Below the pieces are notes generated by a model. The model did not search any database and had not been told where the DNA came from. It saw only the letters and a list, made by a program, of their open reading frames with translations. DNA of 64,000 nt from Comamonas sp. Lineage in GTDB: Bacteria; Pseudomonadota; Gammaproteobacteria; Burkholderiales; Burkholderiaceae_C. Positions 1 through 58,472 of this stretch are shown piece by piece. The translations under genes and the position numbers were made by a program. Position 1 is the stretch's first letter; each line of letters starts with the position of its first letter. The stretch is taken from NCBI RefSeq assembly GCF_009360615.1, contig NZ_SPEY01000017.1, positions 1 to 64,000 of the forward strand, given 5' to 3'.

Positions 1-1627
1 ACAGAATGCAATCACCAATCGGAATGTATTTAAATTCCTCTGTTTTGACATGGTAAACTTCTTCTTCACGTTGAGTGAAGTTTGAAGCTCTATTAGCTCC
101 TTGATTCTGAATTGGGGATGTATCAACTTCATCACCACTGCTACTAATACCTTGACCATTTCCCATTGCCCAAGTTGTTTGTTTATATAAACCGATCTCA
201 TCTGCGGCTTGTTGCGCTGATAATGTAGAAAGCTGTTTAAAGAAGATTTTGAACAAGGTGTTACCCATTACAACCTCAGACAGTGTTTCCAAACCGTTAG
301 GTTTTAGGTTGGCGTAAGTCTGGTAACAAGGGGCAAGGAAGATTTTTGAAGAACGGGCTTGTTCGAATATCCGCCCCCATGTCTCATCGATATACGATCC
401 TGCTTCATCCGGTAATATCATAAACGGTGGGTTTGGTAGCATGTGTGCAGGCAATCTTTGGAAATGTGAAATTGCTGTTCGCATATCCGCGATTAAGATT
501 TTAGCAAGTGCAATTGATTGTTCATTTTTAGCCATCGTTGGAAGCATGACGTAAATGATTTTATTTTGAAGAATACATTCTTCAAAATCGATTTCAGGAT
601 TGTAGCTATTCATTACTTGCCCGAATGAACCTTCACTGAATTGTGATAAACGCGCTGCGAGACCTGAAAGTAAATTTCGGAACATATCGAAGTCAAAGAA
701 TTTGTTTTTAACAAAACTTTTCATCAAAGAGAACCATGCAACTGTCTCCGCAGAATCAGGATATTCTAGCTGTAATTTGCTTTCTACATATTTGAAAGCA
801 TCAAAGTCTTGTAAACAAGCTGTAATGTCTTGGAACGAATAGGGTAAACCAATTCGCTGAAAAGCTGCGACAATCACCTGTAGAGCAATTAAAGCACTAT
901 TACGATAGTGTTCCGCACCACCTGATACTTCGGGTAACAACATCATAATTCGGCTAGTTACTTCTTGTGGATCGCCTCTCAAAATAGGGTTAATGCTATT
1001 AGACATTGAGGGATCGCCGGCATTGATAATAAGTAGGTCTAATTCCCGTCCTGCCCAACAAGCAAGTTGCCACACGGCGAGTAATTCTTTGTTACTCAAC
1101 TTACCATCAATAAAGCATAATCCGCCCCCATTTCTCATTTGCTGTGCCATCATCGATGTCGCCAGAACTGATTTACCGGTACCAGTCGATCCATTGATAG
1201 CTATATGTTGAGAAATAAGGCTATATGGAATAAAGACAGGTTCTCCAGTATCAGTTGTATAACCAACGCAAATACCATTACCGATATTTTCTTCTGGCGT
1301 TCCAACAGGATTACTTGAAGGTAATCTAAAAGGTCGAGCCTTATCCTGCTGCATTATAGGATCGAAAGTGAAAACTTTATCGTAGAAGTATTTAAACTTC
1401 CCATAAAAGAGCAACGTTGCGCACGGGACACCGCAAACTATAAGTACTAATAATCGATAATAAATATTTTCGATTAAATATGGATTTGCTGCTAAACAGC
1501 CAATAATAAACAATAACAGCATCCATCCATCTTTAGGTCCACCAAGAGCCAGATGGCGCAAATCTATTAGATTGAAATCAGCTTGTATTGAGAAGAATCG
1601 TTTTAAGCCATCAAATGTTCCTGCCAT
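1..1627 (-). CDS. Type IV coupling protein (VirD4/TraD/TrbC class), C-terminus outside window
   Basis: The open frame runs from an ATG at 1627 off the left edge, giving 542 visible residues. Two hydrophobic segments lie near residues 35-47 and 58-75. They are followed by a Walker A motif GSTGTGKS (146-153, Lys152) and a Walker B segment FMILPDEAG with Asp407-Glu408. Coupling proteins are inner-membrane hexameric ATPases that bring the relaxase-DNA complex to the type IV secretion channel. The short N-terminal membrane part followed quickly by the P-loop fits TraD/TrbC-like members. It is the downstream gene of a pair: the stop of the preceding 990-residue gene lies only 6 bp before this start. 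A class-level call is safe; the exact family name is not. Confidence 0.88.
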   Translation of the reverse strand, partial: MAGTFDGLKRFFSIQADFNLIDLRHLALGGPKDGWMLLLFIIGCLAANPYLIENIYYRLLVLIVCGVPCATLLFYGKFKYFYDKVFTFDPIMQQDKARPFRLPSSNPVGTPEENIGNGICVGYTTDTGEPVFIPYSLISQHIAINGSTGTGKSVLATSMMAQQMRNGGGLCFIDGKLSNKELLAVWQLACWAGRELDLLIINAGDPSMSNSINPILRGDPQEVTSRIMMLLPEVSGGAEHYRNSALIALQVIVAAFQRIGLPYSFQDITACLQDFDAFKYVESKLQLEYPDSAETVAWFSLMKSFVKNKFFDFDMFRNLLSGLAARLSQFSEGSFGQVMNSYNPEIDFEECILQNKIIYVMLPTMAKNEQSIALAKILIADMRTAISHFQRLPAHMLPNPPFMILPDEAGSYIDETWGRIFEQARSSKIFLAPCYQTYANLKPNGLETLSEVVMGNTLFKIFFKQLSTLSAQQAADEIGLYKQTTWAMGNGQGISSSGDEVDTSPIQNQGANRASNFTQREEEVYHVKTEEFKYIPIGDCIL

Positions 1628-7319: not shown

Positions 7320-7651
7320 CCAAATTCAAAAATTAAAAGTTAGGAAATTGATTGATTTAAACGGGTTTTATGTAATAATAGCCGTACATTCAATATATTT
7401 CATTTTAGATGATCTATAAGTGGACATATTGTTCTTGTAGCAATATGAATGGTATTAACGTACCAATCGAAAAAAGCTCCTTCCTTGTGTTTGAGCTTTT
7501 TTTTTGACTTTTAGAAAATTGCGATGCCTGTTTGTTACACAAAATTACTTATTAAATAATTATTAGTATGCTATATATGCGGTATATGTTTGTGTTTTTG
7601 GAAAATAGTAAATCTGTTCTTAATTGTTTTGTTGATAGTGAGTAATGTAAG
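7320..7651 (+). other. Gene-free stretch with a possible small transcript
   Basis: No reading frame fits in these 332 bp. A weak promoter-like pair (TTGATT around 7348-7357, TAATAA at 7373-7378 after TG) lies about 100 bp before a strong intrinsic terminator at 7469-7506. This could be a small RNA of about 120 nt or simply the 3' end of the upstream operon. The remaining AT-rich DNA (7507-7651) presumably carries the promoter of the next gene. Confidence 0.35.
7469..7506 (+). terminator. Intrinsic terminator after the Sel1/pseudo-ATPase operon
   Basis: The arms AAAAAGCTC and GAGCTTTTT flank a loop of about 13 nt and are followed by a run of nine T's on the plus strand. Confidence 0.85.
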
Positions 7652-8041
7652 ATGGCAGCTATAGTTTTAAATCAGCAAATTGAATCCATGGATAAGAAAG
7701 AAGTTCGAAATAAGAAACCATTCTTATATTTGCTACCTTTCATTGCGGTTGGGATTGCTTTTTCCCTTGGATTTAAATCCATAGTCATTCCTATCTTTGT
7801 CGCTTTTTTTATTATTAGTGTTGTTTTTGATCTGGCTATATCTGGTAAAGGGTCAGAATCGTACGGCGATTCCAATTTTCTTAAAAATGTAGAAGATCAG
7901 AAAGAATTTGATATTAATGCCGCTAAGAAGCTTTTAAAAGCTCATAACGCCGTGATCTACCGTATTGATAGTAAAAACCATACTATTCAGTTTTTCATCA
8001 ATGACCAGAAATACACCATGCGTATTAAGCCAAAATCTTAA
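7652..8041 (+). CDS. Small inner-membrane protein, unknown (129 aa)
   Basis: A short basic N-terminus leads into two hydrophobic segments at about 24-42 and 45-62, then a soluble C-terminal half of about 65 residues ending in a probable beta sheet (NHTIQFFINDQKYTMRIKPK). No family was recognised. The ribosome-binding site is weak (gtaagATG). It is followed 15 bp later by another membrane-anchored protein gene, and both share the terminator at 8641. A membrane complex of the two is plausible but unproven. Confidence 0.6.
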   Translation: MAAIVLNQQIESMDKKEVRNKKPFLYLLPFIAVGIAFSLGFKSIVIPIFVAFFIISVVFDLAISGKGSESYGDSNFLKNVEDQKEFDINAAKKLLKAHNAVIYRIDSKNHTIQFFINDQKYTMRIKPKS

Positions 8042-8056
8042 ATTTTAGAGAAATAT

Positions 8057-8620
8057 ATGCTACATAAAAAAATCGTCAATTATCTTATGTATCCCGCAGC
8101 ATTTGGTATGGCTCTAGTGGTATTCCTTGGGGTAGAAATTATACCTAATGTTCAGGAACCATTAGACAAGCCAGTGAAAGACTTTAGCACCATGGCTGTT
8201 GATCTTAATGAATTATTGATTATGGGATTAGGCAATAAGGCTTATACCGGCTCTGCCAGTGATGTTGTTAATTTGGGAATTATTAACAATTGTGTTGCTC
8301 AGAAGCAAATATATGCTACAGAGTACTTGGGTGGTAGTAAAAGTTATATTCGAAACAAAGAGCAGGCTATTGATTGTTTCAAGCGTGAGGTTGAAACATA
8401 CTATCTTTCAAAAGCGATGGTGAATGAAATGTTGGTTGACGGCAGTGCATTTAAACGTACCTATGTGGATGGTAAGTGGCAGGCTCCTTATGACGCATCA
8501 AAACAATATAAGTACTTGAAATACACATCATTTGTAAAATTAAGCCAACAAAAAAAGAAAATGAATTTATCTCAGGAAGAATTGGTGGAATTGGTCCAAA
8601 AAGAAGCTGAACGTAGTTAA
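8057..8620 (+). CDS. Membrane-anchored protein, unknown (187 aa)
   Basis: Residues 7-27 form one membrane segment (YLMYPAAFGMALVVFLGVEI). The rest is polar and probably outside the membrane on the periplasmic side, with two Cys near residues 80 and 110 that could pair there. The C-terminal 40 residues are highly charged and helical. It is the last gene of a two-gene unit with the 129-residue membrane protein. No family was recognised. Confidence 0.6.
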   Translation: MLHKKIVNYLMYPAAFGMALVVFLGVEIIPNVQEPLDKPVKDFSTMAVDLNELLIMGLGNKAYTGSASDVVNLGIINNCVAQKQIYATEYLGGSKSYIRNKEQAIDCFKREVETYYLSKAMVNEMLVDGSAFKRTYVDGKWQAPYDASKQYKYLKYTSFVKLSQQKKKMNLSQEELVELVQKEAERS

Positions 8621-9097: not shown

Positions 9098-9252
9098 TTG
9101 CTTAAAAAAGAATCTTACATTACTATTGACCTTGAAGATCGCTTAATTCTTTAAGTGTTTTTCATCAGTTGTTTCTTACATTAACTTGTACGGATAACTG
9201 ATGATCGCTAAAGCGCATCTTCCGTTATCCGTACGCCAACGGAGTTCACAAA
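9098..9252 (+). promoter_or_regulatory. Shared promoter and structured leader, copy A
   Basis: The promoter is TTGCTT (9098-9103), a 17-bp spacer and TACTAT (9121-9126). The leader contains TCATCAG (complementary to the later CTGATGA), then an 11-bp perfect stem GTACGGATAAC (9188-9198) / GTTATCCGTAC (9224-9234). This stem encloses a smaller hairpin (CGC TAAA GCG). The SD AACGGAG (9238-9244) follows. The segment TCCGTT just inside the right arm can instead pair with AACGGA of the SD, so opening of the long stem would hide the ribosome site. Confidence 0.8.
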
Positions 9253-9735
9253 ATGAAATATCTTTCCCTTGTGGTTTTCGCAGTTTGTTTTTTGGTTTTC
9301 ATGTTGTTTACTGAAAACTTCATGATTGCAATGAATCAGAAAATCCTTTTCTGGGACTACATGACTACTGTACTTAATCGAGAATCATTTATGCAGGCTT
9401 TAGGTTGGGGTGTTGCTCTAATCTTCTGTGTTTTTACCTCGTTCGTACTGTTGTTTGCAGTGTTCTTAGCTCTGAGTTTTACTAAGCCTAAAATTGTAAT
9501 TCAAGTTCGCTTGAATTCTCTTGCATCGGCTCATTTGCTCATGATCTATGCGATTTCGATCTGCTGTCTTTGTGGTCAGCCTGTATATCAAATCATTAGT
9601 AATGTTTTTATCCTTCATGGATTTGCAAACTACTTGATCTGGTTTATGTTGCCTATTGCTGCCGGTATCGCTTACTCTGCAATTGCTGCTCTCGTAGCCG
9701 CTTTTAAAGGTGTGATTAACGCTTTTAAAAGCTAA
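9253..9735 (+). CDS. Four-helix membrane protein behind leader A (160 aa)
   Basis: The protein is almost entirely hydrophobic, with segments at about 4-24, 48-75, 95-115 and 125-152. No family was recognised. The start is fixed by the leader's conserved SD AACGGAG, 8 nt upstream of the ATG. It shares its promoter, leader and terminator design with four other genes in this region, including an ArdC-type antirestriction gene. It is therefore probably expressed under the same condition as they are. Its function in the inner membrane is unknown. Confidence 0.7.
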   Translation: MKYLSLVVFAVCFLVFMLFTENFMIAMNQKILFWDYMTTVLNRESFMQALGWGVALIFCVFTSFVLLFAVFLALSFTKPKIVIQVRLNSLASAHLLMIYAISICCLCGQPVYQIISNVFILHGFANYLIWFMLPIAAGIAYSAIAALVAAFKGVINAFKS

Positions 9736-9768
9736 TAATAACTAACACTTATTATTAATCTGTAATAA

Positions 9769-9807
9769 AAAAGCCAATTAGAATTTATTCTTTTTGGCTT
9801 TTTTTTC
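9769..9807 (+). terminator. Terminator, cassette A
   Basis: A hairpin AAAGCCAA ... TTGGCTTT with an inner AGAAT/ATTCT stem is followed by eight T's. The AAGCC...GGCTT form recurs after four of the five leader-controlled genes. Confidence 0.85.
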
Positions 9808-9828
9808 TGTCTAATTCATCGGAAAAAA

Positions 9829-9984
9829 TTGCCTAAAAATAGAACCTCATTTAATATTCTTCTTGAAAATCACTCAACTTTTTATGTGTTCTCATCAGCT
9901 TTTATTCTTATCAATTTTTTGAACGGATAGCTGATGATCACACTATGTGATTTTCCGTTATCCGTATGTCAACGGAGATTTATT
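9829..9984 (+). promoter_or_regulatory. Shared promoter and structured leader, copy B
   Basis: The promoter is TTGCCT (9829-9834), a 17-bp spacer and TAATAT (9852-9857). CATCAGC upstream can pair with GCTGATG. The long stem is ACGGATAGC (9923-9931) / GTTATCCGT (9957-9965), with one G-U pair. The inner hairpin has a different sequence from copy A but still pairs (ATCACA CTA TGTGAT). The SD AACGGAG is at 9971-9977. Confidence 0.8.
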
Positions 9985-10314
9985 ATGTTAGCTTGTTACA
10001 ATAATTCTGGTTATCTTTTTTTCTGTATCATCAGTGAAGAAGTATTTAATGAAGATGTTAAAGCTGCTGCAAATGGTGACTGTGAACCTGTTCATCAGGC
10101 TCAATTAAGTGAGTTAGTTGCTGCAATGAAACATTGTCGTGATCCAGAAGAATACCAACAAATGTTGGAAGTATATTCTCAATTGTCTAGTGAATCTTTT
10201 CCTCATCCATCTGTACAGGATGTTAGAAAAGAAATGAGCAATACAAGAGACCCAGAGGAATGTGCCAGACTTGTATCATGGCATGACTCACTAATTAACC
10301 CAAACAATGCTTAA
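9985..10314 (+). CDS. Small acidic soluble protein behind leader B (109 aa)
   Basis: An in-frame ATG at 9934 lies inside the leader hairpin. The real start is the ATG at 9985, 7 nt after the conserved SD AACGGAG, giving a protein that begins MLACYNNSGYLFF. The body is acidic and helical and holds two similar units (KHCRDPEEYQQMLEVYSQL at about 49-67 and SNTRDPEECARLVSWHDSL at about 85-103), so it looks like an internal duplication of a helix-turn-helix hairpin. No family was recognised. Small acidic proteins next to ArdC genes can be anti-defence factors; that is only a suggestion. Confidence 0.65.
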   Translation: MLACYNNSGYLFFCIISEEVFNEDVKAAANGDCEPVHQAQLSELVAAMKHCRDPEEYQQMLEVYSQLSSESFPHPSVQDVRKEMSNTRDPEECARLVSWHDSLINPNNA

Positions 10315-10338
10315 CTCTCATTGTTTTTTTTAAAATAA

Positions 10339-10372
10339 AAGCCTCTTAGATTTATCTATTTGGCTTTTTTTC
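10339..10372 (+). terminator. Terminator, cassette B
   Basis: An AAAAGCC ... GGCTTTTT hairpin with an inner TTAGA/TCTAT stem is followed by seven T's. It is close in sequence to the terminators at 9769 and 16253. Confidence 0.85.
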
Positions 10373-10391
10373 CGTTTTGGTCCCCCCAGAT

Positions 10392-10549
10392 TTGCCTAAA
10401 ATAAAAACCTCATTTAATATTGCTATTGAAGATCGCTCAAATTTTAAGTGTTTTTCATCAGTTTCTATTCATATCAAATTTTTTGTATGGATAACTGATG
10501 ATAGCCAAAGCGCATCTTCCGTTATCCGTACGCCAACGGAGTCTTTACC
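10392..10549 (+). promoter_or_regulatory. Shared promoter and structured leader, copy C
   Basis: The promoter is TTGCCT (10392-10397), a 17-bp spacer and TAATAT (10415-10420). TCATCAG pairs with CTGATGA. The long stem is GTATGGATAAC (10485-10495) / GTTATCCGTAC (10521-10531) with one U-G pair. The SD AACGGAG is at 10535-10541. Confidence 0.82.
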
Positions 10550-11470
10550 ATGAAAAATTTCAAAACTAATGCAGAAGTAAAATTTGCTGAACTTGTTGAA
10601 CAAATTGAATCAAAATTCATTACTGGTCAATGGGTCATGCCATTCAAAGCTGCACGTCCACATTTTAATTTGTTATCAAATAAACGGTATAACGGCATCA
10701 ATGCTTGGGTACTGTCTGTTATAGCAATTCAAAATGATTTCAAGTCAAAAGCTTGGATTACATACAAGCAAGCACAAACAAAAGGTTGGCACGCAAGAAA
10801 GGGTGAAGTTGGTACACCGGTTCAATTTTGGAATACCATTAAAGATAAAGCCGATCCAGAGAAAGAAGTATGGTTTGTAAAATACTATACAGTTTTCAAT
10901 TTGGATCAGCTTGAAGATGAAGATGGAAAACCAGTCGAATTTGATACTGCGACTCTTTTAGACCTGCCTTCTTTTAATGAGCAGCTTACTATGTTGGAAT
11001 GCATCATTAATGATATGGGTGTAAAAGTACATCATGTTGAAGGTATCGGTAGAGCTTTCTATCGGAGAACTGAACATGCTATCTATTTACCACCAGTGGG
11101 CGAATTTAATTCTCAAACTGCCTATTTAGCTACCTTGCTGCATGAATTAGGTCACGCGACTCACCGTTACGTTCGACCAAATTGGGAAAAAGGACCATTT
11201 GGATCAGTTCTTTATGCAAAAGAAGAATGCGTTGCAGAGTTAACTTCTGTATTCGTATCTTCCATGTTTGGAATTGAGAAGATTGCCTTAGATAGTCATG
11301 CAGGATATATAGCAGATTGGCTTCAAACTGCAAAAGAGGATGATCCAAAATTTTTCGCTAAAGCTGTTAAAGAAGCGACAAAAGCATCATTCTTCATGTG
11401 GGACATTCTGTATCCAGAAAAATCTATTGAGCCTTCTGATATGGAAAATATTGCAACAATTGAAGCTTAA
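10550..11470 (+). CDS. ardC: ArdC-like antirestriction protein with zincin metallopeptidase domain
   Basis: The N-terminal half (about 5-125) has the ssDNA-binding ArdC/DUF1738 pattern, including the W-x-T-x-x-Q-A-x-x-x-G-W segment and the V-F-N-L-D-Q end. The C-terminal half carries a zinc-metallopeptidase motif HELGHATH (His198, Glu199, His202) and a downstream Glu230 in ECVAEL, a likely third ligand. The length (306 aa) matches ArdC. ArdC proteins protect incoming plasmid DNA from restriction in the recipient. The start follows the conserved leader SD by 8 nt. It is the only recognised member of the leader-C regulon, so it is the best clue to what that regulon is for. Confidence 0.85.
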   Translation: MKNFKTNAEVKFAELVEQIESKFITGQWVMPFKAARPHFNLLSNKRYNGINAWVLSVIAIQNDFKSKAWITYKQAQTKGWHARKGEVGTPVQFWNTIKDKADPEKEVWFVKYYTVFNLDQLEDEDGKPVEFDTATLLDLPSFNEQLTMLECIINDMGVKVHHVEGIGRAFYRRTEHAIYLPPVGEFNSQTAYLATLLHELGHATHRYVRPNWEKGPFGSVLYAKEECVAELTSVFVSSMFGIEKIALDSHAGYIADWLQTAKEDDPKFFAKAVKEATKASFFMWDILYPEKSIEPSDMENIATIEA

Positions 11471-11491
11471 TAACTTCAATAACTTACTAAC

Positions 11492-11528
11492 AAAAGCCAA
11501 CTAAGATTTTTCTTTTTTGGCTTTTTTT
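11492..11528 (+). terminator. Terminator, cassette C
   Basis: A hairpin AAAAGCCAA ... TTTTGGCTTTT with an inner AGA/TCT pairing is followed by seven T's. Confidence 0.85.
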
Positions 11529-11913
11529 ATTTGAAAAAATATTATATATAATGATTTTAATGGATTATTTGGAATATTAATTTTAAATATTTAATATAAT
11601 CATAAAATATATTATTAACTTTTTGTAAAAGTTAATGCAATTTAATAAAAACTATACTATGATTTGTCTTGAACAGTTGTTCCGCTTTCCGGCGTTAATG
11701 GAGTTCCTAATGAACAAGTGTTTGTAGGCTTACCTTTAAAGTATTGCGCTTCAAATACGATTGTTTGTGTACTTAGGTACATAAACAGAATTGATGGCTA
11801 ATTCTATCAATAACTCTCTAATAGTCGCCCGTTGATTAACCTCTCGGGCGATTTTTACTGTGCCTACCATTCGTTGATAACAAGTTTTTTGAACAAAAAC
11901 CTTTGAGATACAC
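11529..11913 (+). other. Gene-free stretch with a possible decayed leader and small transcript
   Basis: A segment at about 11680-11712 (TTCCG, TTTCCGG, ATGGAGTTCC, then ATG) resembles the end of leader E. It opens only a 5-codon frame (MNKCL). A -10-like TATACT is at 11653-11658. About 110 bp further on lies an intrinsic terminator (11825-11856). The stretch may hold a remnant sixth cassette or a small RNA; no protein gene is visible. Confidence 0.35.
11825..11856 (+). terminator. Intrinsic terminator without an upstream protein gene
   Basis: A G+C-rich stem TCGCCCG (11825-11831) / CGGGCGA (11845-11851) is followed by five T's. The nearest plus-strand gene (10550) already has its own terminator, so this one implies a separate transcript. 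Confidence 0.8.
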
Positions 11914-12228
11914 ATGAGCGAAAAACAAAATACAAGTTCTGGATTTCCATTCTTCTCATTACTGATACTTATAACGTTTCTGGGCTATGCTTTGCTTCGT
12001 TTATATTTCTTTTTAGTACCGACCCCTGACACAACCTTATACTTTAAAAAAGAAGCGTGTGATCTCATCGAGATTATAGGTGGTGAAAAGAATGATCGCT
12101 GCATTATGAAAGGATCAGTTCGTCAAGACCTTTTTACGGATGGGTATTTGATTAAATTGGACAATGGGGAAGAAGTTTATATCAACAGCCAAGCCATTGT
12201 GTCTCGTTCTTTCCCTGTAACTAAGTAA
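11914..12228 (+). CDS. Single-pass membrane protein, unknown (104 aa)
   Basis: Residues 10-35 form one membrane segment. The remaining ~70 residues make a compact, probably extracytoplasmic beta-rich domain (DGYLIKLDNGEEVYINSQAI) with two Cys, at about 46 and 59, that could form a disulphide. No family was recognised. It is convergent with the SppA-like gene, whose stop lies 43 bp away. Confidence 0.55.
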   Translation: MSEKQNTSSGFPFFSLLILITFLGYALLRLYFFLVPTPDTTLYFKKEACDLIEIIGGEKNDRCIMKGSVRQDLFTDGYLIKLDNGEEVYINSQAIVSRSFPVTK

Positions 12229-12271
12229 GGTTACAAGGAAAGAATCTTAACAATACAGTCGGGAGATGGGA

Positions 12272-13258
12272 TTATTTGATCTCTAATGTATTTCCTTCTT
12301 TTAAGCTATTAGAAAAACCTTGTCCAATGGCTCTACCAATATCGTTATACGCCGTATTAAATAAAGCCCCAAAACCGGAGTTTACATAAGTATAGTTTTT
12401 AACGGTATCAATTTTTAATTCACGTTTTATTGTATTCATGTCACCAATTTGATCAGCGATACCGATTTGAACAGCTTGTTCTCCAGTCCAGACTAATCCA
12501 GAAAACATATCATCCGACTCTTTTAATTTTCCATTTCTACCATCTCGGACATACTGAATAAATGTATGGTGAACGTTGTTCAGCATATTCTGGTAATAAG
12601 TCATTTGTTCATCAGTAACTTTTTTTGTGAAAGAGAATGCTGCTTTGTTGGTACCGGCAGTTAACGTTCTGTCGTTGACACCAATTTTATCCATCATCTT
12701 CGTTAGGTCGTAATTGCTCATAATCACACCGATAGAACCGACCAATGATGTTTTACCCACCACGATGAAATCACTCGCAGATGCGATTTGATAAGCTGCT
12801 GACGCACCTAAATCTTGAATCAGAGCATACACTTTCTTTTCCGGATACTTTTTCTTTAAAAATTGGATCTCGTTCCAGACCATTTCTGCTTGATAGGGCG
12901 ATCCGCCGCCCGAATTTATTTCCAGAACAATATATTGACTGTCCTCATTTTCAAAAGCACTTTGAAGGGCTTTAGAGATACTTTCACCATTAGCATTAGT
13001 ATCAGCAGAAATAGTTCCATTTATGCGTATAACAGCAATATGCTTCCCTTTGACAAATGAGTTTTTAATGTTTTCATAAATTTTAAAGTTTTGATTTAGG
13101 CTATAGATAACCAAGAGGGTGAGAAGAATGCCTAGCATAGTTGAAAGAATTTCAAGCCACGTTCGTTTCTTCACTTTATAAGTTACTGTCTTGGGAAGAT
13201 CAGGTTCTCGATTAAAAATTCTTTTAAAGTATTCTTTTATACGGTTCATACGGCGCAT
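12272..13258 (-). CDS. sppA: SppA-type signal peptide peptidase (S49 family, short form)
   Basis: A short cytoplasmic part and one membrane segment (about 33-53) are followed by the S49 protease fold: INGTI, INSGGGSP, then LGASAAYQIAS with the nucleophile Ser153, GSIGVIMSNYDL, and the general-base Lys205 in AGTNKAAFS. The Ser-Lys spacing of 52 equals that of Bacillus SppA as I recall it. The 328-residue size fits the short, single-domain class. These membrane serine proteases cut residual signal peptides or membrane proteins. A plasmid copy is unusual and could process plasmid-encoded exported proteins, of which there are many here. It forms its own minus-strand unit. Confidence 0.88.
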   Translation of the reverse strand: MRRMNRIKEYFKRIFNREPDLPKTVTYKVKKRTWLEILSTMLGILLTLLVIYSLNQNFKIYENIKNSFVKGKHIAVIRINGTISADTNANGESISKALQSAFENEDSQYIVLEINSGGGSPYQAEMVWNEIQFLKKKYPEKKVYALIQDLGASAAYQIASASDFIVVGKTSLVGSIGVIMSNYDLTKMMDKIGVNDRTLTAGTNKAAFSFTKKVTDEQMTYYQNMLNNVHHTFIQYVRDGRNGKLKESDDMFSGLVWTGEQAVQIGIADQIGDMNTIKRELKIDTVKNYTYVNSGFGALFNTAYNDIGRAIGQGFSNSLKEGNTLEIK

Positions 13259-13387
13259 CCATTTTTATAAGCACTTTTAGAAGTAATAACAATAATATTA
13301 TTAAAATTTAAATATTACATTAAATATTAGGATTATCTTCCGCCGTAGAACAGGTTTTATTGTACAAAGAGTAGGGGGAGAATGTCT

Positions 13388-13867
13388 TTATTTTTCCACT
13401 TGGCAAAATTCTTGAAACGAAATTTGGGGTCTAGGAACCGAAAAGTATGGACCCCAATAGATGATACTACCTTCTTGTTCAATATGATTTTTTATATCCC
13501 CAAAGAAGGAATCATAAAGTTTGAAATAGTTATATGCATTTAGGTTTTTGGGATTTCCATTGCAGACTTGACGAATGCCTGATTGTAAATCAGGAGCTTG
13601 AAAGCTCGAATTTTTATCCTTTATTTCCTCAATGATTGAACTCAAATAGCCTATCTGGAACTGAGGTACTGGAACTAAAAAAAGGAAGGAGAAATAAATA
13701 GTTGCAACAACAGCTAATAGTTGAATAATGCTTTTATTTTTTTGGGCTTTATCCTTGTATTTTTTAATAAAAAAATAAAAAATGAGGCTCGGAATAGCCA
13801 GTATTACTAATATAAAGTACCAGTCTACATAAAGAAAACTTATTAAACCTTCCAATCTCTTTCTCAA
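13388..13867 (-). CDS. Two-helix membrane protein, unknown (159 aa)
   Basis: Membrane segments lie at about 14-34 and 47-67. A C-terminal half of about 90 residues follows and probably faces the periplasm; it contains two Cys (about 108 and 155) that could be disulphide-bonded. No family was recognised. It starts 1 bp after the stop of the 88-residue membrane protein gene, so the two form an operon. Confidence 0.6.
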   Translation of the reverse strand: MRKRLEGLISFLYVDWYFILVILAIPSLIFYFFIKKYKDKAQKNKSIIQLLAVVATIYFSFLFLVPVPQFQIGYLSSIIEEIKDKNSSFQAPDLQSGIRQVCNGNPKNLNAYNYFKLYDSFFGDIKNHIEQEGSIIYWGPYFSVPRPQISFQEFCQVEK

Positions 13868-13868
13868 C

Positions 13869-14135
13869 TTATCGCGTCAATATAAATATTTGATTAACTA
13901 CACCTAGTGTACACAAAACCATTAAGAGTAATGAGGGTATGTAAATCTTAAATTTACGATAAAACCATAAGGCTGCGATAAACAAAAAAATTAAAAACAT
14001 CATAAAATTAACGTTCAACTCTGTAGGTCCATCTACGGCGTAAATTGATGTCCATGTTAAGAGCATGACTAACATTAATGTTAGTGGAATTAAGTAATAA
14101 ATATGATTTTTTAATATTGCATATTTAAATTTCAT
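13869..14135 (-). CDS. Small three-helix membrane protein, unknown (88 aa)
   Basis: Three hydrophobic segments, at about 10-30, 38-57 and 64-84, fill nearly the whole protein. No family was recognised. It is the first gene of a two-gene membrane-protein operon and is divergent from the leader-D cassette. Confidence 0.55.
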   Translation of the reverse strand: MKFKYAILKNHIYYLIPLTLMLVMLLTWTSIYAVDGPTELNVNFMMFLIFLFIAALWFYRKFKIYIPSLLLMVLCTLGVVNQIFILTR

Positions 14136-14208
14136 TGAAGTAAAACTTTTTTAAAATATTAATAATTATATCACACCTAAAATTGCCCAACCAATTGTCA
14201 ATTAACAT

Positions 14209-14369
14209 TTGCGTGGTGCTGCGAGTTGAATTAACATTGGCTATGAAGAAAGCCTATTTCAAGTATTTATTTTCAACAACTATCCTTACCAAAATTTTAA
14301 TTTTGTATGGATAGCTGATGATTGCTTTGAGCATTCTTTCGTTATCCGTACGCCAACGGAGTTTTAATC
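14209..14369 (+). promoter_or_regulatory. Shared promoter and structured leader, copy D
   Basis: The promoter is TTGCGT (14209-14214), a 17-bp spacer and TAACAT (14232-14237). The long stem is GTATGGATAGC (14305-14315) / GTTATCCGTAC (14341-14351) with two G-U pairs. The inner hairpin is TGCT TTG AGCA. The SD AACGGAG is at 14355-14361. The upstream TCATCAG element is not preserved here; this is the most divergent copy. Confidence 0.75.
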
Positions 14370-14834
14370 ATGAACTATTCTGTATTCACTTTAGCTGTTG
14401 TTGTTCTTGTTGTTTATCTTAAAGATTCAATTCTTTTAAGATTGAAAAACGCTCATTTTCCTTTCTCTGGTGCCAAACCTATAGTATTGGATAGTGTTAA
14501 CTTTGGTTTGAAATACATGATTTATATCCTTATAAGTTGTGTAGTAGTCTCAGCTCTTGTTGCTTTGACTCAAAAAATCAAAAAAGAACAAGCTTCTAGT
14601 AAAGTTATGAGTGTAATCAATACTCATGCTTTGTTAAGTATCATTTCTTTCCTTGTGGTCATTGTAATTATCCCATGTGTCAAAGGAATCTCTATCTTGT
14701 TAAAAGATGGTACCAATGATCTTTATACTGCTTGGATCGGTGTTGTACTTTTCCTTGCTTTTACATTTGCCGTTACAGTTTTCGTAAGTTTGAAAGCTGA
14801 ATGGTTCAAGGTCATTGATAAAGCTACAGACTAA
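14370..14834 (+). CDS. Multi-helix membrane protein behind leader D (154 aa)
   Basis: Hydrophobic segments lie at about 4-20, 47-68, 88-110 and 122-143, with a basic linker (KKIKKEQ) between the second and third. No family was recognised. Its size and topology resemble the leader-A gene at 9253, although I see no convincing sequence identity. The ATG is 8 nt after the conserved SD of leader D. Confidence 0.7.
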   Translation: MNYSVFTLAVVVLVVYLKDSILLRLKNAHFPFSGAKPIVLDSVNFGLKYMIYILISCVVVSALVALTQKIKKEQASSKVMSVINTHALLSIISFLVVIVIIPCVKGISILLKDGTNDLYTAWIGVVLFLAFTFAVTVFVSLKAEWFKVIDKATD

Positions 14835-14855
14835 ACATCTGTTTGCATTTTTTTT

Positions 14856-14892
14856 AAAAAACCATTTAGAGTTATCTATCTGGTTTTTTTTT
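14856..14892 (+). terminator. Terminator, cassette D
   Basis: AAAAAACCA ... TGGTTTTTT with an inner AGA/TCT pairing and a long T-run. It has the same shape as the other cassette terminators, but the base of the stem is ACC/GGT rather than GCC/GGC. Confidence 0.8.
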
Positions 14893-15097
14893 GTTCTGAG
14901 GTAGGGGATTTGCCGATCGGCAAATTTTCACTCAACAAGAGAAAACGTAAACATTGGTTAAATTCCAATTATTACAAGTTTAGTTTATCTAGTGATTTAC
15001 ACTTACAACTTTAATTTTATGTTGCAAGCGAAAGTGACAAGTTTAGTTAATTAAACAGGTTGTTTCAAAAATGAAACTTTAAATTTGGCAGTAATAT
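14893..15097. other. Gene-free stretch with three inverted repeats
   Basis: It contains an 18-bp perfect palindrome (14908-14925, centre TGCCGATCGGCA), an imperfect GTTTA...TAAAC repeat near 15040-15056 and a GTTTCA-AAAA-TGAAAC repeat (15062-15077). No gene is seen. The palindrome looks like a binding site for a dimeric protein, but its partner is unknown. Confidence 0.5.
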
Positions 15098-15257
15098 TTG
15101 CCTAATATTAAAACATCTATTAATATTAATTTTGAAGAATGCCAACGTAGACATGCTTTCATCTAATGCTATCAATCAAAAATCAAATTTTTGTATGGAT
15201 AGCTGATGATCGCTTAACGCTTTCTTCCGTTATCCGTACGCCAACGGAGTTCCCCTC
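15098..15257 (+). promoter_or_regulatory. Shared promoter and structured leader, copy E
   Basis: The promoter is TTGCCT (15098-15103), a 17-bp spacer and TAATAT (15121-15126). The long stem is GTATGGATAGC (15193-15203) / GTTATCCGTAC (15229-15239) with U-G and G-U pairs. The inner hairpin is weak. The SD AACGGAG is at 15243-15249. Confidence 0.8.
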
Positions 15258-16247
15258 ATGACTAATTTAGCTATTTCCGCAAAGCTTGAATCATCTTTAG
15301 TTGCTAATCGTGTAAAAGCGTTTGTTCAACATAAAGGTTTCTCAAAAGCACAACCTGTTGGTTGGGTAAAAGATAATGTTTTTGACCTTAACGCAATTCT
15401 TTGCAGCGTTAAAAATAATTATCCTTTTGGATATTGTCCTTCAAATGAACGTTATGTAAGTAACGTTGAATGGAACTGGACAAAACTTCCAAAAGATTTA
15501 CCTATTACTAAACTTGCATTTAGCTTGGTTCTCGGTGTTGAGTGTTTTTCAACATGTGTCCTTCAAAATGTCGGACGCAAGAAGATCAAGCTTGATGATA
15601 AATGGTCACATAGACTATGCAAAACTGGTGTTTGGTATGAAGAATTAACTTCAACTGTAGATTTATCTAAGTTTACTGATGAAGCAATCATTCAAAGTAC
15701 ACAAATAGCACAGCAAATTATAAATGAGATTTGCACAGTAGAGTTTAGTGATGTTGCTCAACTTGTTGAAGAAGATCGAAGCTTTAAAGGATACAAATAC
15801 GAAGCGCGTAGAATTCTTTCATCTTTATACATGTTGGATATTTCAACTGAAATGCCAATATCTATAAATGATCGAATTGATTTTGTTAAGTTGCCTAAGC
15901 CTTACGCTTATAAGACTCAATACTATTGCGAATCGGAGTATTCACAGTACTTTTCTAAATTATTGAATCGTTTGCCTGTTAAAACAGTTGCCGATTTAAT
16001 GCTTGATTTGATCCCTTGTCAACATGATGCCGGATTAATTCTCGCTGTACTGACCAGTGTAGACAATGATCAGCTTTCAAAAGAGCTTTTTCAAAGTTTG
16101 CATCCTGTGATTATTCGTCAAATAGATGAGTATGAGCAGTTGGTACTAAATTATGAAAAGCCTTCTTCTAAACCAGAAGATGTGTTGGCAATGAATCGTA
16201 AGATGCCAACTCCTGTTCTTACTAATTATTTGAACAGAGTTTCATGA
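15258..16247 (+). CDS. Soluble protein of unknown function behind leader E (329 aa)
   Basis: No signal peptide or membrane segment is present and no family was recognised. The N-terminal third is rich in aromatic residues and Cys (CPSNERYVSNVEWNWTKLP near 60; further Cys near 95-100). The C-terminal third is helical. The start is fixed by the conserved leader SD, 8 nt before the ATG. It is the largest leader-regulon gene after ArdC by context and is followed by a cassette-type terminator. A role in establishment or anti-defence is suggested only by the shared control. Confidence 0.65.
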   Translation: MTNLAISAKLESSLVANRVKAFVQHKGFSKAQPVGWVKDNVFDLNAILCSVKNNYPFGYCPSNERYVSNVEWNWTKLPKDLPITKLAFSLVLGVECFSTCVLQNVGRKKIKLDDKWSHRLCKTGVWYEELTSTVDLSKFTDEAIIQSTQIAQQIINEICTVEFSDVAQLVEEDRSFKGYKYEARRILSSLYMLDISTEMPISINDRIDFVKLPKPYAYKTQYYCESEYSQYFSKLLNRLPVKTVADLMLDLIPCQHDAGLILAVLTSVDNDQLSKELFQSLHPVIIRQIDEYEQLVLNYEKPSSKPEDVLAMNRKMPTPVLTNYLNRVS

Positions 16248-31697: not shown

Positions 31698-32228
31698 ATG
31701 ATGCCAATGTTCTTTAAAATTTTGGGAATTGTTGCTTTGATTTTGTTAATACTAATTATTGTATTTGGACCCAACTTTAAAGCTAAGGAACTTGAACCCA
31801 ATGAAGAACAAGAAGATTCAGGGAACGAAGAATGTGCATCTGACTTTGACGGGAATGTTTCCCCTAAAAGAATTTTAACTGATAGTGAAGCTTACAATCT
31901 TGAACGAATCATTAACAACATGCCAGAAGGATTACTGATTTGTCCTCAGGTCAGTTTCAATGCTTTTATTAATTGCAAAATTACAAAACTCCGAAACCAA
32001 TTTAATCGAAAGTCGGTGGACTATTTGATCGTAGATCATGATTTCAATCCACTTCTTGTTGTTGAAATTGACGATGATTCACATACAAGTAAAAAGGTAA
32101 GAATGCGTGATTTAAAGCGGGATGAGATTGCAGCAGCAGCCGGTATACCCACACTTAGAATAACTAATAAAACTCCAACGGAAAGTCTTGAGAATCTAAT
32201 AAGGACCCATATACGAGAGGCTGCTTAA
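31698..32228 (+). CDS. Membrane-anchored DUF2726 (PD-(D/E)XK-like) protein (176 aa)
   Basis: A membrane segment at about 5-25 is followed by an acidic linker, then a DUF2726-type domain from about 65. It contains LICPQVSFNAF, FNRKSVDYLIVDHDFNPLLV and VVEIDDDSHTSKKVRMRD. The pattern Asp ... Glu-x-Asp-(Asp) with a following basic helix is that of a restriction-endonuclease-like fold. Nuclease activity is inferred, not shown. GAGGAATAAG gives the SD. It is convergent with the 138-residue gene, whose stop lies 3 bp away. Confidence 0.7.
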   Translation: MMPMFFKILGIVALILLILIIVFGPNFKAKELEPNEEQEDSGNEECASDFDGNVSPKRILTDSEAYNLERIINNMPEGLLICPQVSFNAFINCKITKLRNQFNRKSVDYLIVDHDFNPLLVVEIDDDSHTSKKVRMRDLKRDEIAAAAGIPTLRITNKTPTESLENLIRTHIREAA

Positions 32229-32231
32229 TTA

Positions 32232-32648
32232 TCAATCTTCGAGATATTCTGCTTGTGTTAGAAGTGATTGATAAATTGCTTCTCCAAGAAGCTGTTTGGA
32301 AAACATTAGTTGAGATAGATCAAAAATATACGAAATTTTATCTATGTTTAACCATAGTCGTCCTTTAGACAAAAATGAATCAATTTTGTATAAGTGTAAA
32401 GAGCTGACTAATTCTGTATCCAAGAAAGTAATACACTCCCATTCTTCCTTTTCCTTTTTTAGCAACTGGAAATAGAATAATGGAATAAAATTAATTAACT
32501 CATCCAAAAGGGTTATAAGATGAGGTGTACCATTTAAAGTAATGTTAATTTTAAAGACAATATTCCCTTTGGGATTTACAAATACCTCGCCACAAGCTCC
32601 ATCCATTGACCTAAAACTTATAGCTTCGCCTATCTTGTCTATTAACAT
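32232..32648 (-). CDS. Unknown soluble protein (138 aa)
   Basis: Beta-rich N-terminal half (GNIVFKINITLNGTPHLITLL) and helical C-terminal half, with no export signal. GGAG lies 10 nt before the ATG. No family was recognised. It is separated from the DUF4116-like gene upstream by a strong terminator, so it has its own promoter or depends on read-through. Confidence 0.55.
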   Translation of the reverse strand: MLIDKIGEAISFRSMDGACGEVFVNPKGNIVFKINITLNGTPHLITLLDELINFIPLFYFQLLKKEKEEWECITFLDTELVSSLHLYKIDSFLSKGRLWLNIDKISYIFDLSQLMFSKQLLGEAIYQSLLTQAEYLED

Positions 32649-32670
32649 TTTCGTAACTCCTATGAGTCTA

Positions 32671-32702
32671 ATAAAAAAGCGGAACTTATAAGTTCCGCTT
32701 TA
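32671..32702. terminator. Perfect 24-bp palindromic terminator
   Basis: AAGCGGAACTTA/TAAGTTCCGCTT (32677-32700) with A- and T-runs at its ends; it terminates the gene at 32707. Confidence 0.88.
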
Positions 32703-32706
32703 AAAA

Positions 32707-34194
32707 TTAGTTTGCGTTCGAGAAAATTTCAACAATTTCCTGAGGTTCCAAATAACGAGAAATAATTGGGTTATTCTCAATCAATTTACTCATAAGGACA
32801 TGGTTTTGTTGAGTTTCCCTTGGAATTGATCTAACTTGGCTAGGATATTTTTTTAAAAATATTTCTGTACGATCAATTGTTTTGGCATCATCGGTGAAAG
32901 CAATGTATGACTCAACATTTTTTTCAAAAAATATTGCTGCTTTGTCAGTCGGGATGGATTGTTTTAATAATCTGTATTCGTCTATTGAGCAGTCAAATTT
33001 TTGTAGTTGGTCCCAATCCAGTTTATCCGCTTGCGTGATTAAATAAGCGAATGACTCTCGGCTTCCAAGAAGTGACTGTCGCAATTCTTCATTATTTACA
33101 ACCTCATCAATGAAGAAATATTTTGGGAGCTGATCGATCCACCCTTCTTTAATTGCTTCTGCGACTGTTTGAACAATTCGATCTGCTCCAACAGATTTTA
33201 GTCTATTGTAAGGAAGATACCTGAAAGCCTTTTTATTCAACGTATAAGCACTGGCAATTATTTCACCGGTCCAATTGAAACTTTCTAATTTAGGATATAC
33301 GTCATTTTGAATAGCGATTTCAAAAATGTCTTTTGTGATAAAGCATGGTTGTAAATGTACTATCCACTCAGGTTTTTGTGAGAACAAATGTACGAAGGCT
33401 TCGTATTTTTCGTGATGCATCAGGACTTTTGGATCACAGTTGTCAAAAATGTATTGAGGCGAGTAACTATCAAGATTTTCAATGAAATAAATTAATTCAT
33501 TGATTCGGTGTTGATTGGGTATCAAATTTGCTGCAATGAGGTGGGTAGCCCCCTCAATTGGAAATTTTATAAGCTGCTCTATGTAAAAATCTGCATCCAA
33601 TTTACTTCGATCTATTTTGTCGAGTAAGAATGCATCTTCACTTTCTTTGGCAATTTCAATTATTTTCGAATCAATAATATTTGGTGGTACAAACTCTATG
33701 GCACGCCAATCCAGTGAAACGGCTTTTTGACAAATATAGAAATATTTAAGGTCATCACGCACATACTGTAGAGCTAGTGGTTGTTTATTTATCACCTCTT
33801 GGACTATTTCTTTAGTCTGGTGAAATTCATTCAAAAGACCGAGCAATCTAGGCTCTAGCATGACTGCTGTAGCATACATTTTTGGTTGAATGTATGAGTC
33901 GTCTAAATTTATTAAACAAAGAGGATTTGCATAAATTAAATCCCAAACATCATTTTCATTGAATACTTCGGGGGGTACATAACCTAGAAAAAGAGGATTT
34001 TTTTTGATTTCGTTAATAAAATCAGCAGATTTTAAAAAGTAAATATTAAACGCCCGATTGCTTGGATCATAAAAGCGATTTGACGTGTATTCTTTGTAAA
34101 TATTATTGCCATACGGAGGCTTGATGTTGGTCGCCAAAATTTTGCCACTGTGTAGTAGCTCGTTATAAAGCTCCTGATTTGTATTTGACTTCAT
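32707..34194 (-). CDS. DUF4116-like helical-repeat protein (495 aa)
   Basis: Repeats of about 25-50 residues carry a 'N/K-P-L-A-L-x-Y-V-x-x-x-L' core, for example KNPLFLGYVPPEVFN, ANPLCLINLDDSYI, KQPLALQYVRDDL and VSLDWRAIEFVPPNII. This is the DUF4116-type solenoid pattern of paired helices. No signal peptide or catalytic motif was seen. Two more proteins of this kind are encoded at 55359 and 55731. The gene follows the third TraG-like gene on the minus strand. It may be a scaffold or effector-like protein; its role is unknown. Confidence 0.6.
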   Translation of the reverse strand: MKSNTNQELYNELLHSGKILATNIKPPYGNNIYKEYTSNRFYDPSNRAFNIYFLKSADFINEIKKNPLFLGYVPPEVFNENDVWDLIYANPLCLINLDDSYIQPKMYATAVMLEPRLLGLLNEFHQTKEIVQEVINKQPLALQYVRDDLKYFYICQKAVSLDWRAIEFVPPNIIDSKIIEIAKESEDAFLLDKIDRSKLDADFYIEQLIKFPIEGATHLIAANLIPNQHRINELIYFIENLDSYSPQYIFDNCDPKVLMHHEKYEAFVHLFSQKPEWIVHLQPCFITKDIFEIAIQNDVYPKLESFNWTGEIIASAYTLNKKAFRYLPYNRLKSVGADRIVQTVAEAIKEGWIDQLPKYFFIDEVVNNEELRQSLLGSRESFAYLITQADKLDWDQLQKFDCSIDEYRLLKQSIPTDKAAIFFEKNVESYIAFTDDAKTIDRTEIFLKKYPSQVRSIPRETQQNHVLMSKLIENNPIISRYLEPQEIVEIFSNAN

Positions 34195-37274: not shown

Positions 37275-37447
37275 CAGAAATCCTATTAATATTTTTTAAA
37301 ATTAATCAATTATAAATCTAATGTTATGGAATATAAAATAAAACAATAAAAAAACTTTAAGAAAATAATATAATTATTTTTTCATTTTTTATCTGTTATA
37401 TTTTTACAAGATAAAAATACTTATTTATCAATCAAAAGAGGAATTCT

Positions 37448-37942
37448 ATGAAAAAATCTACTAAAGCACAGCTTTGCGGCTTAATATTTTCACTATCACC
37501 ACTGTATCTTTATGCGGAGCCTGTCAATGTTCAAGAAAGTCAGTACACTGACTCAAATCCAGAACAAAATTTTCGCACTTTACATAAAGATTTGAAAATT
37601 TCCTCTTTGTCAGGTAGGGAGAAGGCACAGAAATCCATACTTGAAGGTGTAAATAAGAAATTAGATGCCTTAGAAAAACCTGATCAAAAGTTTTCCTTTC
37701 TTATGGCAATGAACCAAGTTTTCAAGGACAGATTCCATGTAAATTACAATGCCTTTGTTCATCTGAATGATGAAGATAAAGCATTTATGGATGGTTATTA
37801 CACGACAATGTTGGTTCTATTAGATAATGAAATTAAAGAAGGTAAGAAAACAAAAGCCGAACTTATTGAAGAATATGAAAGTAAATATCCTTTTAAAGTA
37901 TTTAATCAAGACTTAGATAAAGTCCACGCCGCAAATCGATAA
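37448..37942 (+). CDS. Secreted helical protein between traG paralogues (164 aa)
   Basis: A clear signal peptide (KKSTKAQLCGLIFSLSPLYL, cleavage after YLYA at about 24) is followed by a charged, helical mature part of 140 residues. GAGGAATTCT precedes the ATG. It runs opposite to the TraG-like genes on both sides and ends at a shared bidirectional terminator. A periplasmic partner or regulator of the TraG proteins is a reasonable guess from position only. No family was recognised. Confidence 0.65.
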   Translation: MKKSTKAQLCGLIFSLSPLYLYAEPVNVQESQYTDSNPEQNFRTLHKDLKISSLSGREKAQKSILEGVNKKLDALEKPDQKFSFLMAMNQVFKDRFHVNYNAFVHLNDEDKAFMDGYYTTMLVLLDNEIKEGKKTKAELIEEYESKYPFKVFNQDLDKVHAANR

Positions 37943-37968
37943 AAAAAGCGGCAAAGCCGCTTTTTTTA
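37942..37968. terminator. Bidirectional terminator
   Basis: AAAAAAGCGGC/GCCGCTTTTTT with an AAA loop ends the plus-strand gene at 37448 and the minus-strand gene at 37966. Confidence 0.9.
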
Positions 37969-41163: not shown

Positions 41164-41166
41164 ATC

Positions 41167-58302: not shown

Positions 58303-58472
58303 AGATACTCTAATAATTAAAATAAATGATTAACAAGAGTATAGTAAATATTTGCAGCTAAGTCTATATCATTTTTGCGGTATATATTTTGATTGAATTA
58401 TTTTATTTAAGTACATAATTTTATAATATATTTATAGAAATCATTGAATCTTAGGAATTAATATCAACTTGA

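Follow-up and report, generated by a model that had tools for sequence, protein, structure and literature searches.

A structured leader repeated before unrelated plasmid genes is probably a shared RNA on/off switch

Why should genes whose products have nothing in common be preceded by almost the same promoter and almost the same untranslated leader? The question is raised by a 64,000-nt stretch of DNA (the window) that forms the first 64 kb of the 242,768-bp contig C122 (NZ_SPEY01000017.1). A sequence-only reading of the window had proposed that five genes, ardC among them, share one promoter and one structured leader. We found good comparative evidence that the leader is a real multi-copy structured element, absent from Rfam, with two predicted competing folds around the Shine-Dalgarno (SD) sequence, and we consider it probable that its copies represent one bistable regulatory RNA controlling the translation of a plasmid regulon. 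The promoters, leaders and genes in the window, together with the arms of helix P_C and the hairpin P_D, whose competition is described below, are located as follows (genes are named by their first base).

9098–9126, +: promoter TTGCTT-17-TACTAT, leader of gene 9253
9134–9252, +: leader RNA of gene 9253, from the predicted start to the base before the ATG
9188–9198, +: P_C 5' arm GTACGGATAAC, leader of gene 9253
9224–9234, +: P_C 3' arm GTTATCCGTAC, leader of gene 9253
9228–9244, +: P_D hairpin over the SD, leader of gene 9253 (TCCGT-ACGCCA-ACGGA, then G)
9253–9735, +: gene for a 160-aa predicted membrane protein with a pARA1 orthologue
9829–9857, +: promoter TTGCCT-17-TAATAT, leader of gene 9985
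9865–9984, +: leader RNA of gene 9985
9921–9931, +: P_C 5' arm GAACGGATAGC, leader of gene 9985
9957–9967, +: P_C 3' arm GTTATCCGTAT, leader of gene 9985
9961–9977, +: P_D hairpin over the SD, leader of gene 9985, loop ATGTCA
9985–10314, +: gene for a 109-aa protein, no family match
10392–10420, +: promoter TTGCCT-17-TAATAT, ardC leader
10428–10549, +: leader RNA of ardC
10485–10495, +: P_C 5' arm GTATGGATAAC, ardC leader
10521–10531, +: P_C 3' arm GTTATCCGTAC, ardC leader
10525–10541, +: P_D hairpin over the SD, ardC leader
10550–11470, +: gene for the ArdC anti-restriction protein (ArdcN and MPTase-PolyVal, Pfam)
14209–14237, +: promoter TTGCGT-17-TAACAT, leader of gene 14370
14245–14369, +: leader RNA of gene 14370
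14305–14315, +: P_C 5' arm GTATGGATAGC, leader of gene 14370
14341–14351, +: P_C 3' arm GTTATCCGTAC, leader of gene 14370
14345–14361, +: P_D hairpin over the SD, leader of gene 14370
14370–14834, +: gene for a 154-aa predicted membrane protein with a pARA1 orthologue
15098–15126, +: promoter TTGCCT-17-TAATAT, leader of gene 15258
15134–15257, +: leader RNA of gene 15258
15193–15203, +: P_C 5' arm GTATGGATAGC, leader of gene 15258
15229–15239, +: P_C 3' arm GTTATCCGTAC, leader of gene 15258
15233–15249, +: P_D hairpin over the SD, leader of gene 15258
15258–16247, +: gene for a 329-aa protein, no family match, with leader-bearing orthologues on both related plasmids

The five −35/−10 pairs named in the sequence-only reading are all present, each with a 17-bp spacer, and its distances from the −10 to the ATG (126, 127, 129, 132 and 131 bp) were reproduced. 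The near-identity it described for the last ~65 nt holds among leaders within one plasmid, and the five encoded proteins are, as it stated, unrelated, with no mutual similarity at E 0.001; ArdC is the only one of them with a Pfam match. The 21-mer GTTATCCGTAnGnCAACGGAG, with up to three mismatches allowed, occurs at five sites in the window, all exact and all in the five leaders (mean of 0.01 matches in shuffled windows). The five leaders are thus all real, and the set proved larger than had been thought, as a covariance model finds eight full copies on the contig. Gene 9985 is lengthened as a mechanical open reading frame (ORF) by an in-frame ATG at 9934, which lies within the leader.

C122 resembles two plasmids, pARA1 of Acinetobacter radioresistens (NZ_AP019741) and the 299-kb plasmid of Acinetobacter sp. 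TGL-Y2 (NZ_CP015111). The covariance model, built on 14 family I leaders, gives 25 full copies: eight on C122 and eight on pARA1, which make up family I (16 copies), and nine diverged copies on the TGL-Y2 plasmid, which make up family II. The latter are detected at E 2e-8 to 8e-4, each directly before an annotated gene, and blastn with one TGL-Y2 leader likewise gives nine places. The three further C122 leaders form cluster 2, near 92.8–94.0 kb, about 80 kb from the first cluster. A partial copy that the model finds on the small contig C123, five weak matches (E 0.05–0.5) and three further matches were left out of these counts.

The proteins encoded behind the 25 leaders form 14 groups that show no similarity to one another at E 0.001, which bears out the proposal that the leader, not the gene, is what is conserved. 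In four groups orthologues occur on each of the three plasmids, and in two others on C122 and pARA1; every member of these six sets carries the leader, so that no homologue lacking it, the finding that would have spoken against the proposal, turned up among them. The covariance-model check suggested in the sequence-only reading thus returned further copies, upstream of unrelated ORFs and with conserved structure in the form of two-sided changes at paired positions. Non-orthologous leaders of the same plasmid have a mean identity of 67–71%, and between C122 or pARA1 and TGL-Y2 the values are 47–48% for orthologous and 43–45% for non-orthologous pairs. The leaders diverge together between plasmids, being either homogenised within each plasmid or tracking a shared factor.

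The leaders have no Rfam match at the gathering score and no plausible match at E ≤ 5; exact leader patterns gave two chance-like stretches in genome contigs and none in viral contigs. One of 53 genomes in the genus scan and one of 250 in the family scan were positive, both being the window's own, a weakly informative result as this assembly looks like a metagenome bin. Nothing found in searches of open-licence papers was recognised as these leaders or as a plasmid Csy4 regulator. As for the products, no match was obtained for seven of the eight C122 leader proteins tried against PHROGs (all but ArdC) or for all eight tried against PADLOC, these two being the only family searches applied to the three cluster 2 genes; relatives of one leader protein were sought in viral contigs, where 267 pattern matches yielded none that was confirmed.

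The promoter lies in a fixed register to the leader. In 25 of 25 copies TTG, a 17-bp spacer and TAnnnT are followed after 6–7 nt by the predicted RNA start, although in six of them the best-scoring promoter pair is one or two bases off the common register. The predicted RNA starts with GAA (GGA and GTT in one copy each), and the ATG follows 115–134 nt downstream in all 25. Its first bases are the 5' arm of helix P_A, pairing beginning at predicted base 1. As a sigma-70 promoter the sequence is a fair match: at least eight of 12 consensus positions agree in 88% of the 25 copies versus 32% of shuffles (mean scores 8.1 and 7.1), and a generic promoter scan of the window did not list the leader promoters. 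The case for the promoter rests on the fixed register, found in all 25 copies, and not on consensus strength.

Two alternative folds are predicted for the RNA. The OFF fold comprises P_A, in which the RNA 5' end pairs with the 3' side of a later loop; P_B (CAUCAG/CUGAUG, or CAACC/GGUUG in family II); P_F (CUAUCC/GGAUAG); and P_D (UCCGU/ACGGA or UCCGA/UCGGA), which covers the SD (GGAG) and whose closing pair is U-A in 16 copies and A-U in nine. The ON fold comprises P_E and P_C, the latter pairing approximately GUACGGAUAGC with GUUAUCCGUAC or, in family II, an arm around GUGAUGAUGG with CCGUCAUCCGA. By these computations each of the 25 copies can adopt either fold, and the two folds share the anti-SD strand.

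With OFF defined as P_D formed, the mean of ON minus OFF is +1.0 kcal/mol, the difference staying within 4 kcal/mol in 22 of 25 copies. The minimum folds of single copies are OFF in 16, ON in eight and a tie in one, and the family I consensus with RIBOSUM scoring gives OFF ~0.79 and ON ~0.21. Growth snapshots of four copies arrive at OFF in three cases and at ON in one. Opening the SD costs on average 5.6 kcal/mol in OFF versus 2.4 in ON, OFF being defined here by the upstream pairing of the P_C 5' arm; it is cheaper in ON in all 25 copies, by at least 1 kcal/mol in 24. An RNA thermometer is not supported: between 10 and 42 °C the mean probability of ON in the energy model rises only from 0.31 to 0.37.

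The folds were compared with the pattern of sequence change. Two-sided changes occur at 19 of 29 OFF pairs in the 25-row alignment, which was itself fitted to the OFF structure; none of 500 shuffles reaches 19 (shuffle mean 12.5). Controls slid out of register have 8–12 such pairs, with 32–46% of cells paired versus 89.4% in the true register. Independently of any alignment, each leader's own 5' half pairs better than a swapped one: the cognate mean was reached by 8 of 20,000 permutations among the 16 leaders of family I and by 7 of 20,000 among the nine of family II. Helix P_A alone gave 72 and 111, respectively. When the 5' halves are shuffled, mean ON minus OFF falls from +1.0 to −5.8 kcal/mol, and in family I the observed balance is reached by none of 960 shuffles.

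These results bear on the view that the leaders are simply a homogenised cassette of promoter and ribosome-binding site (RBS), spread by duplication, with the folds as a by-product and no switching. The near-identity of the last ~65 nt within a plasmid is what such a cassette would look like, and gene conversion can yield concerted divergence; yet the differing 5' halves still pair with their own partners, and shuffled 5' halves lose the energy balance in family I. We regard a cassette without a switch as unlikely.

A different reading of the same conservation is that it marks a DNA element, either an operator or a single-stranded DNA (ssDNA) promoter of the Frpo kind, that would serve during entry of the plasmid into the cell as ssDNA. 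PMC8708921 describes plasmids with multi-copy inverted-repeat elements before ardC and other genes: EGeRS1 and EGeRS2 of the pLS20 family are conserved sequences upstream of ardC and of several other genes or operons, and they were used to define an establishment regulon. According to the same text, EGeRS1, reported with no mechanism known for it, lies immediately upstream of a likely RBS, and its copies are 420–751 bp long with inverted repeats, no constitutive promoter having been found in the tested copy; a ribbon-helix-helix repressor controls EGeRS2, which is a strong promoter. PMC11541004 has leading-region genes driven by Frpo promoters, Frpo being folded DNA that mimics a double-stranded promoter. 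Our leader is like EGeRS in that ardC and other genes on a single plasmid are each preceded by a copy, and like Frpo and ssi in being a structured element repeated before plasmid genes. Unlike EGeRS as described there, it would be an RNA of ~125 nt with its own predicted promoter and two competing folds at the SD; unlike Frpo and ssi as described, the promoter found for it is predicted to be linear and lies outside the fold in 25 of 25 copies.

Against a DNA element, this linear promoter with a 17-bp spacer precedes the structured part in every copy, its register to the 5' arm of P_A being fixed, and the predicted RNA is paired from its first base on. The strand itself leaves a trace in the ON helices: P_C/P_E cells contain 20 G-U pairs in family I (14 leaders) and 23 in family II (nine leaders), no A-C, and 4 and 2 other mismatches. 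The family I OFF alignment, with 17 G-U and 12 A-C, does not decide the strand. Because P_C/P_E allows G-U and not A-C, and given the promoter register, a sense-strand RNA is favoured, and we hold a DNA element to be improbable.

Several results weigh against a bistable RNA, beginning with the fitted alignment behind the count of 19. In an unfitted family I alignment, five pairs have two-sided changes (7 of 500 shuffles) and there is no excess of pair types (96 of 500); within family I, P_C has no two-sided change. The swap test is weaker for P_B and P_F alone than for the whole (956 and 1865 of 20,000 permutations in families I and II), the automatic helix split having placed the P_B boundary wrongly in at least one copy (pA191401). 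P_E alone gave 2085 in family I, the adverse value, and 45 in family II, and a local 5' hairpin is unsupported (3770 and 13,382). The family II energy balance is reached by 73 of 540 shuffles, 62 of them from three copies. Default RNAalifold chooses the ON hairpin for family I, and the ensemble energies are unevenly balanced, with OFF favoured in 16 of 25 copies and ON in nine. The folds are not fully exclusive in two of 25 copies, both of family II, whose best P_D fold retains six P_C pairs. Finally, even in ON the model has a mean of only 28% of the SD unpaired at 37 °C.

With these points counted, we still judge a bistable RNA to be the probable explanation, translational switching to be its likely function, and the leader probably to act as a shared on/off switch for the whole set of plasmid genes. 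Each gene would be transcribed from its own promoter, with the RNA starting at GAA. In the OFF state, P_A, P_B and P_F would hide the 5' arm of P_C and P_D would close over the SD; in the ON state, the long P_C/P_E hairpin would take the UCCGU strand and free the SD. Translation would follow the fold, with OFF as the presumed default, and a shared trans-acting signal may pick the state, so that all genes would switch together. The sequence-only reading suggested, from the presence of ArdC in the set, an establishment or anti-defence regulon; that the leader genes form an establishment regulon is plausible. For the timing of a plasmid's first genes in a new host, ssDNA promoters and transcriptional repressors are already known; a multi-copy translational RNA switch would, if true, be another answer. 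The leader also names the members of the regulon directly, most of them proteins without a known family, and families I and II offer two diverged versions of one switch for experiment.

In translational riboswitches and erm-type attenuators, an anti-sequestering hairpin competes with a hairpin that sequesters the SD. Competing SD hairpins are predicted in all 25 leaders, although in two of them P_D can coexist with a shortened P_C; the leaders differ from those systems in having no Rfam-matched aptamer, no conserved leader peptide and unrelated target genes. One alternative is modelled on leader-peptide attenuators: a ribosome initiating at an AUG within the leader would open or close P_C. Every leader does contain one or more upstream ATGs, and all 16 family I copies have one in common, placed where the P_B arm ends on its 3' side (CTGATGA or a variant). 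The structure accounts for this conservation, the ATG lying inside that arm. Against upstream initiation, the peptide is not conserved, with three residues in the leader of gene 15258, more than 20 in others and three different frames, and the upstream ATGs of family II are at other places; we consider it very improbable.

If the signal acts in trans, what might carry it? Among known RNA-binding families, ProQ, CsrA and cold-shock proteins had no match on pARA1 or the TGL-Y2 plasmid, and in the window's assembly ProQ and cold-shock matches were on other contigs only and CsrA had none. A plasmid small RNA (sRNA) could pair with the leaders and set the fold. An sRNA-like locus with an intrinsic terminator at 7371–7505 of the window is 89.6% identical in pARA1 (170447–170581) and recognisable on the TGL-Y2 plasmid (~6655–6719). 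Its computed duplexes with the leaders are, on the other hand, no better in energy than shuffles in the 15 leaders scored, out of 25, and apart from a single 10-mer C122 carries no perfect 10-nt antisense to the conserved 21-mer outside the leaders. Such a role for an sRNA seems unlikely. On TGL-Y2, a small stem of the sRNA-like locus is changed on both sides (GGUA/UACC to GGAA/UUCC), with loops UUAACG and UUCACG.

A protein candidate is a plasmid-borne Csy4-like protein, which would bind P_D and lock the OFF state once the plasmid is established; absent from a new recipient, it would permit a burst of expression there. This extends the proposed RNA switch and does not replace it, and we put it forward as a tentative possibility. 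The gene is found at the following places.

97,882–98,499 of C122: Csy4-like gene
32,211–32,837 of pARA1: Csy4-like gene
57,772–58,377 of the TGL-Y2 plasmid: Csy4-like gene

On all three plasmids it lies 3.2–3.6 kb beyond the last cluster 2 leader gene. The annotated order in both relatives, pARA1 and TGL-Y2, is leader genes, DUF4116, DsbD, a protein of unknown function and Csy4-like, and the C122 gene has the corresponding position. In a tblastn search of 72,556 plasmid records, the C122 protein found only pARA1 (54%) and TGL-Y2 (33%). Records of both relatives name the protein type I-F Cas6/Csy4; the pARA1 protein scores 28.1 bits against Pfam Csy4 (cut-off 25), and hhalign against eight genuine Csy4 proteins gave 81%, E 1.2e-5, over 118 columns. 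On C122 the eight leaders are the only sites of the pattern TCCGN-5..7-NCGGAG; of 20 shuffles, three have one copy and 17 have none.

The link is nevertheless circumstantial, as many genes of these plasmids must have the same distribution. Pfam Csy4 matches neither the C122 protein nor that of TGL-Y2; against the NCBIfam cas_Csy4 model the pARA1 protein is far below the cut-off and the other two have no match, and no PDB match was found for the Csy4-like protein. The N-terminal 72 residues fall outside the profile alignment, in which the Arg-rich helix, functional in Csy4, corresponds to a gapped region. An LH dipeptide, outside that alignment and placed by eye, is invariant in the three proteins and may correspond to the catalytic His29 of Csy4. 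A crude scan of C122 and pARA1 found no CRISPR array on C122 and, on pARA1, one repeat of 54-bp period near a rep gene. The likeness to Csy4/Cas6f thus consists of a distant profile match and a small hairpin as putative ligand; the differences are a C122 without an array in the crude scan and the gapped Arg-rich helix.

The hairpin also occurs apart from the leader. Ten small Acinetobacter plasmids share 24–27 nt with the ardC leader at 96–100% identity, and a 23-nt block, CGTTATCCGTACGCCAACGGAGT, is invariant in six aligned loci (five of the ten plasmids and C123). The block sits in a conserved region, several hundred bases long and nearly or wholly free of annotated genes, that lacks the 5' half of the leader; the spacing from GGAG to the ATG is 7 nt in five loci and 13 nt in one. 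No plausible Rfam match was found for this region in the five loci scanned (L013, L058, L059, L060 and L062). This distribution suggests that the P_D/SD hairpin is recognised in its own right. A bolder combination, also doubtful, is that the Csy4-like protein, derived from CRISPR but without an array, has become the regulon's master translational repressor. It would capture the SD hairpin of the leaders before eight or nine genes on each plasmid, so that expression would burst in a naive recipient alone, and the small plasmids would have copied the hairpin, as the exact 23-nt match would have it, to tap or titrate this control.

A further conserved element follows ardC, at ~11660–11860 of the window, and contains a mini-ORF (MNKCL; MIKCLLADSQ in pARA1, translated by eye) and a terminator. 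In pARA1 (174377) a P_D-like hairpin, TCCGGCGTTACCGGAG, precedes the ATG of the mini-ORF.

As to the carrier, the window has a G+C content of 35% versus 61–67% in six sampled contigs of the same assembly, in whose 125 contigs no 16S match was found. We infer from these compositions and resemblances that C122 is a mis-binned Acinetobacter-type plasmid. F-type transfer genes (TraK, TrbI, TraC and TraF domains) lie at 228–238 kb of C122 and TraG_N/TraN proteins at 34–54 kb; on pARA1 the leader genes start ~10 kb after traH. No relaxase was found among the 46 C122 proteins scanned with Pfam, nor was an origin of transfer (oriT) located; MOB-suite types both pARA1 and the TGL-Y2 plasmid as non-mobilizable. 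Three large TraG_N-domain proteins are encoded at 34314–45918 of the window, one with a sub-cut-off phage-lysozyme-like match.

Upstream of the transfer operon, a block at 220010–223692 of C122 is 79% identical to 142192–145888 of pARA1; about 2 kb of it lies outside ATG-started ORFs of at least 60 aa, and it has no plausible Rfam match. The block may hold oriT or belong to a long untranslated stretch. A second multi-copy upstream element, at 123–214 kb of C122 and 67–137 kb of pARA1, reads approximately TTTTGCGGTATATATTGTATAAT, often followed by ATCAACTTTGGAG, and TGCGGTATAT is present in 14 of 15 extracted C122 sites; it probably marks another plasmid-wide regulon. On the TGL-Y2 plasmid, a repeat of about CATATCGCACAyGCGGTTT occurs in several intergenic copies at ~8000–8100 and 16000–16200.

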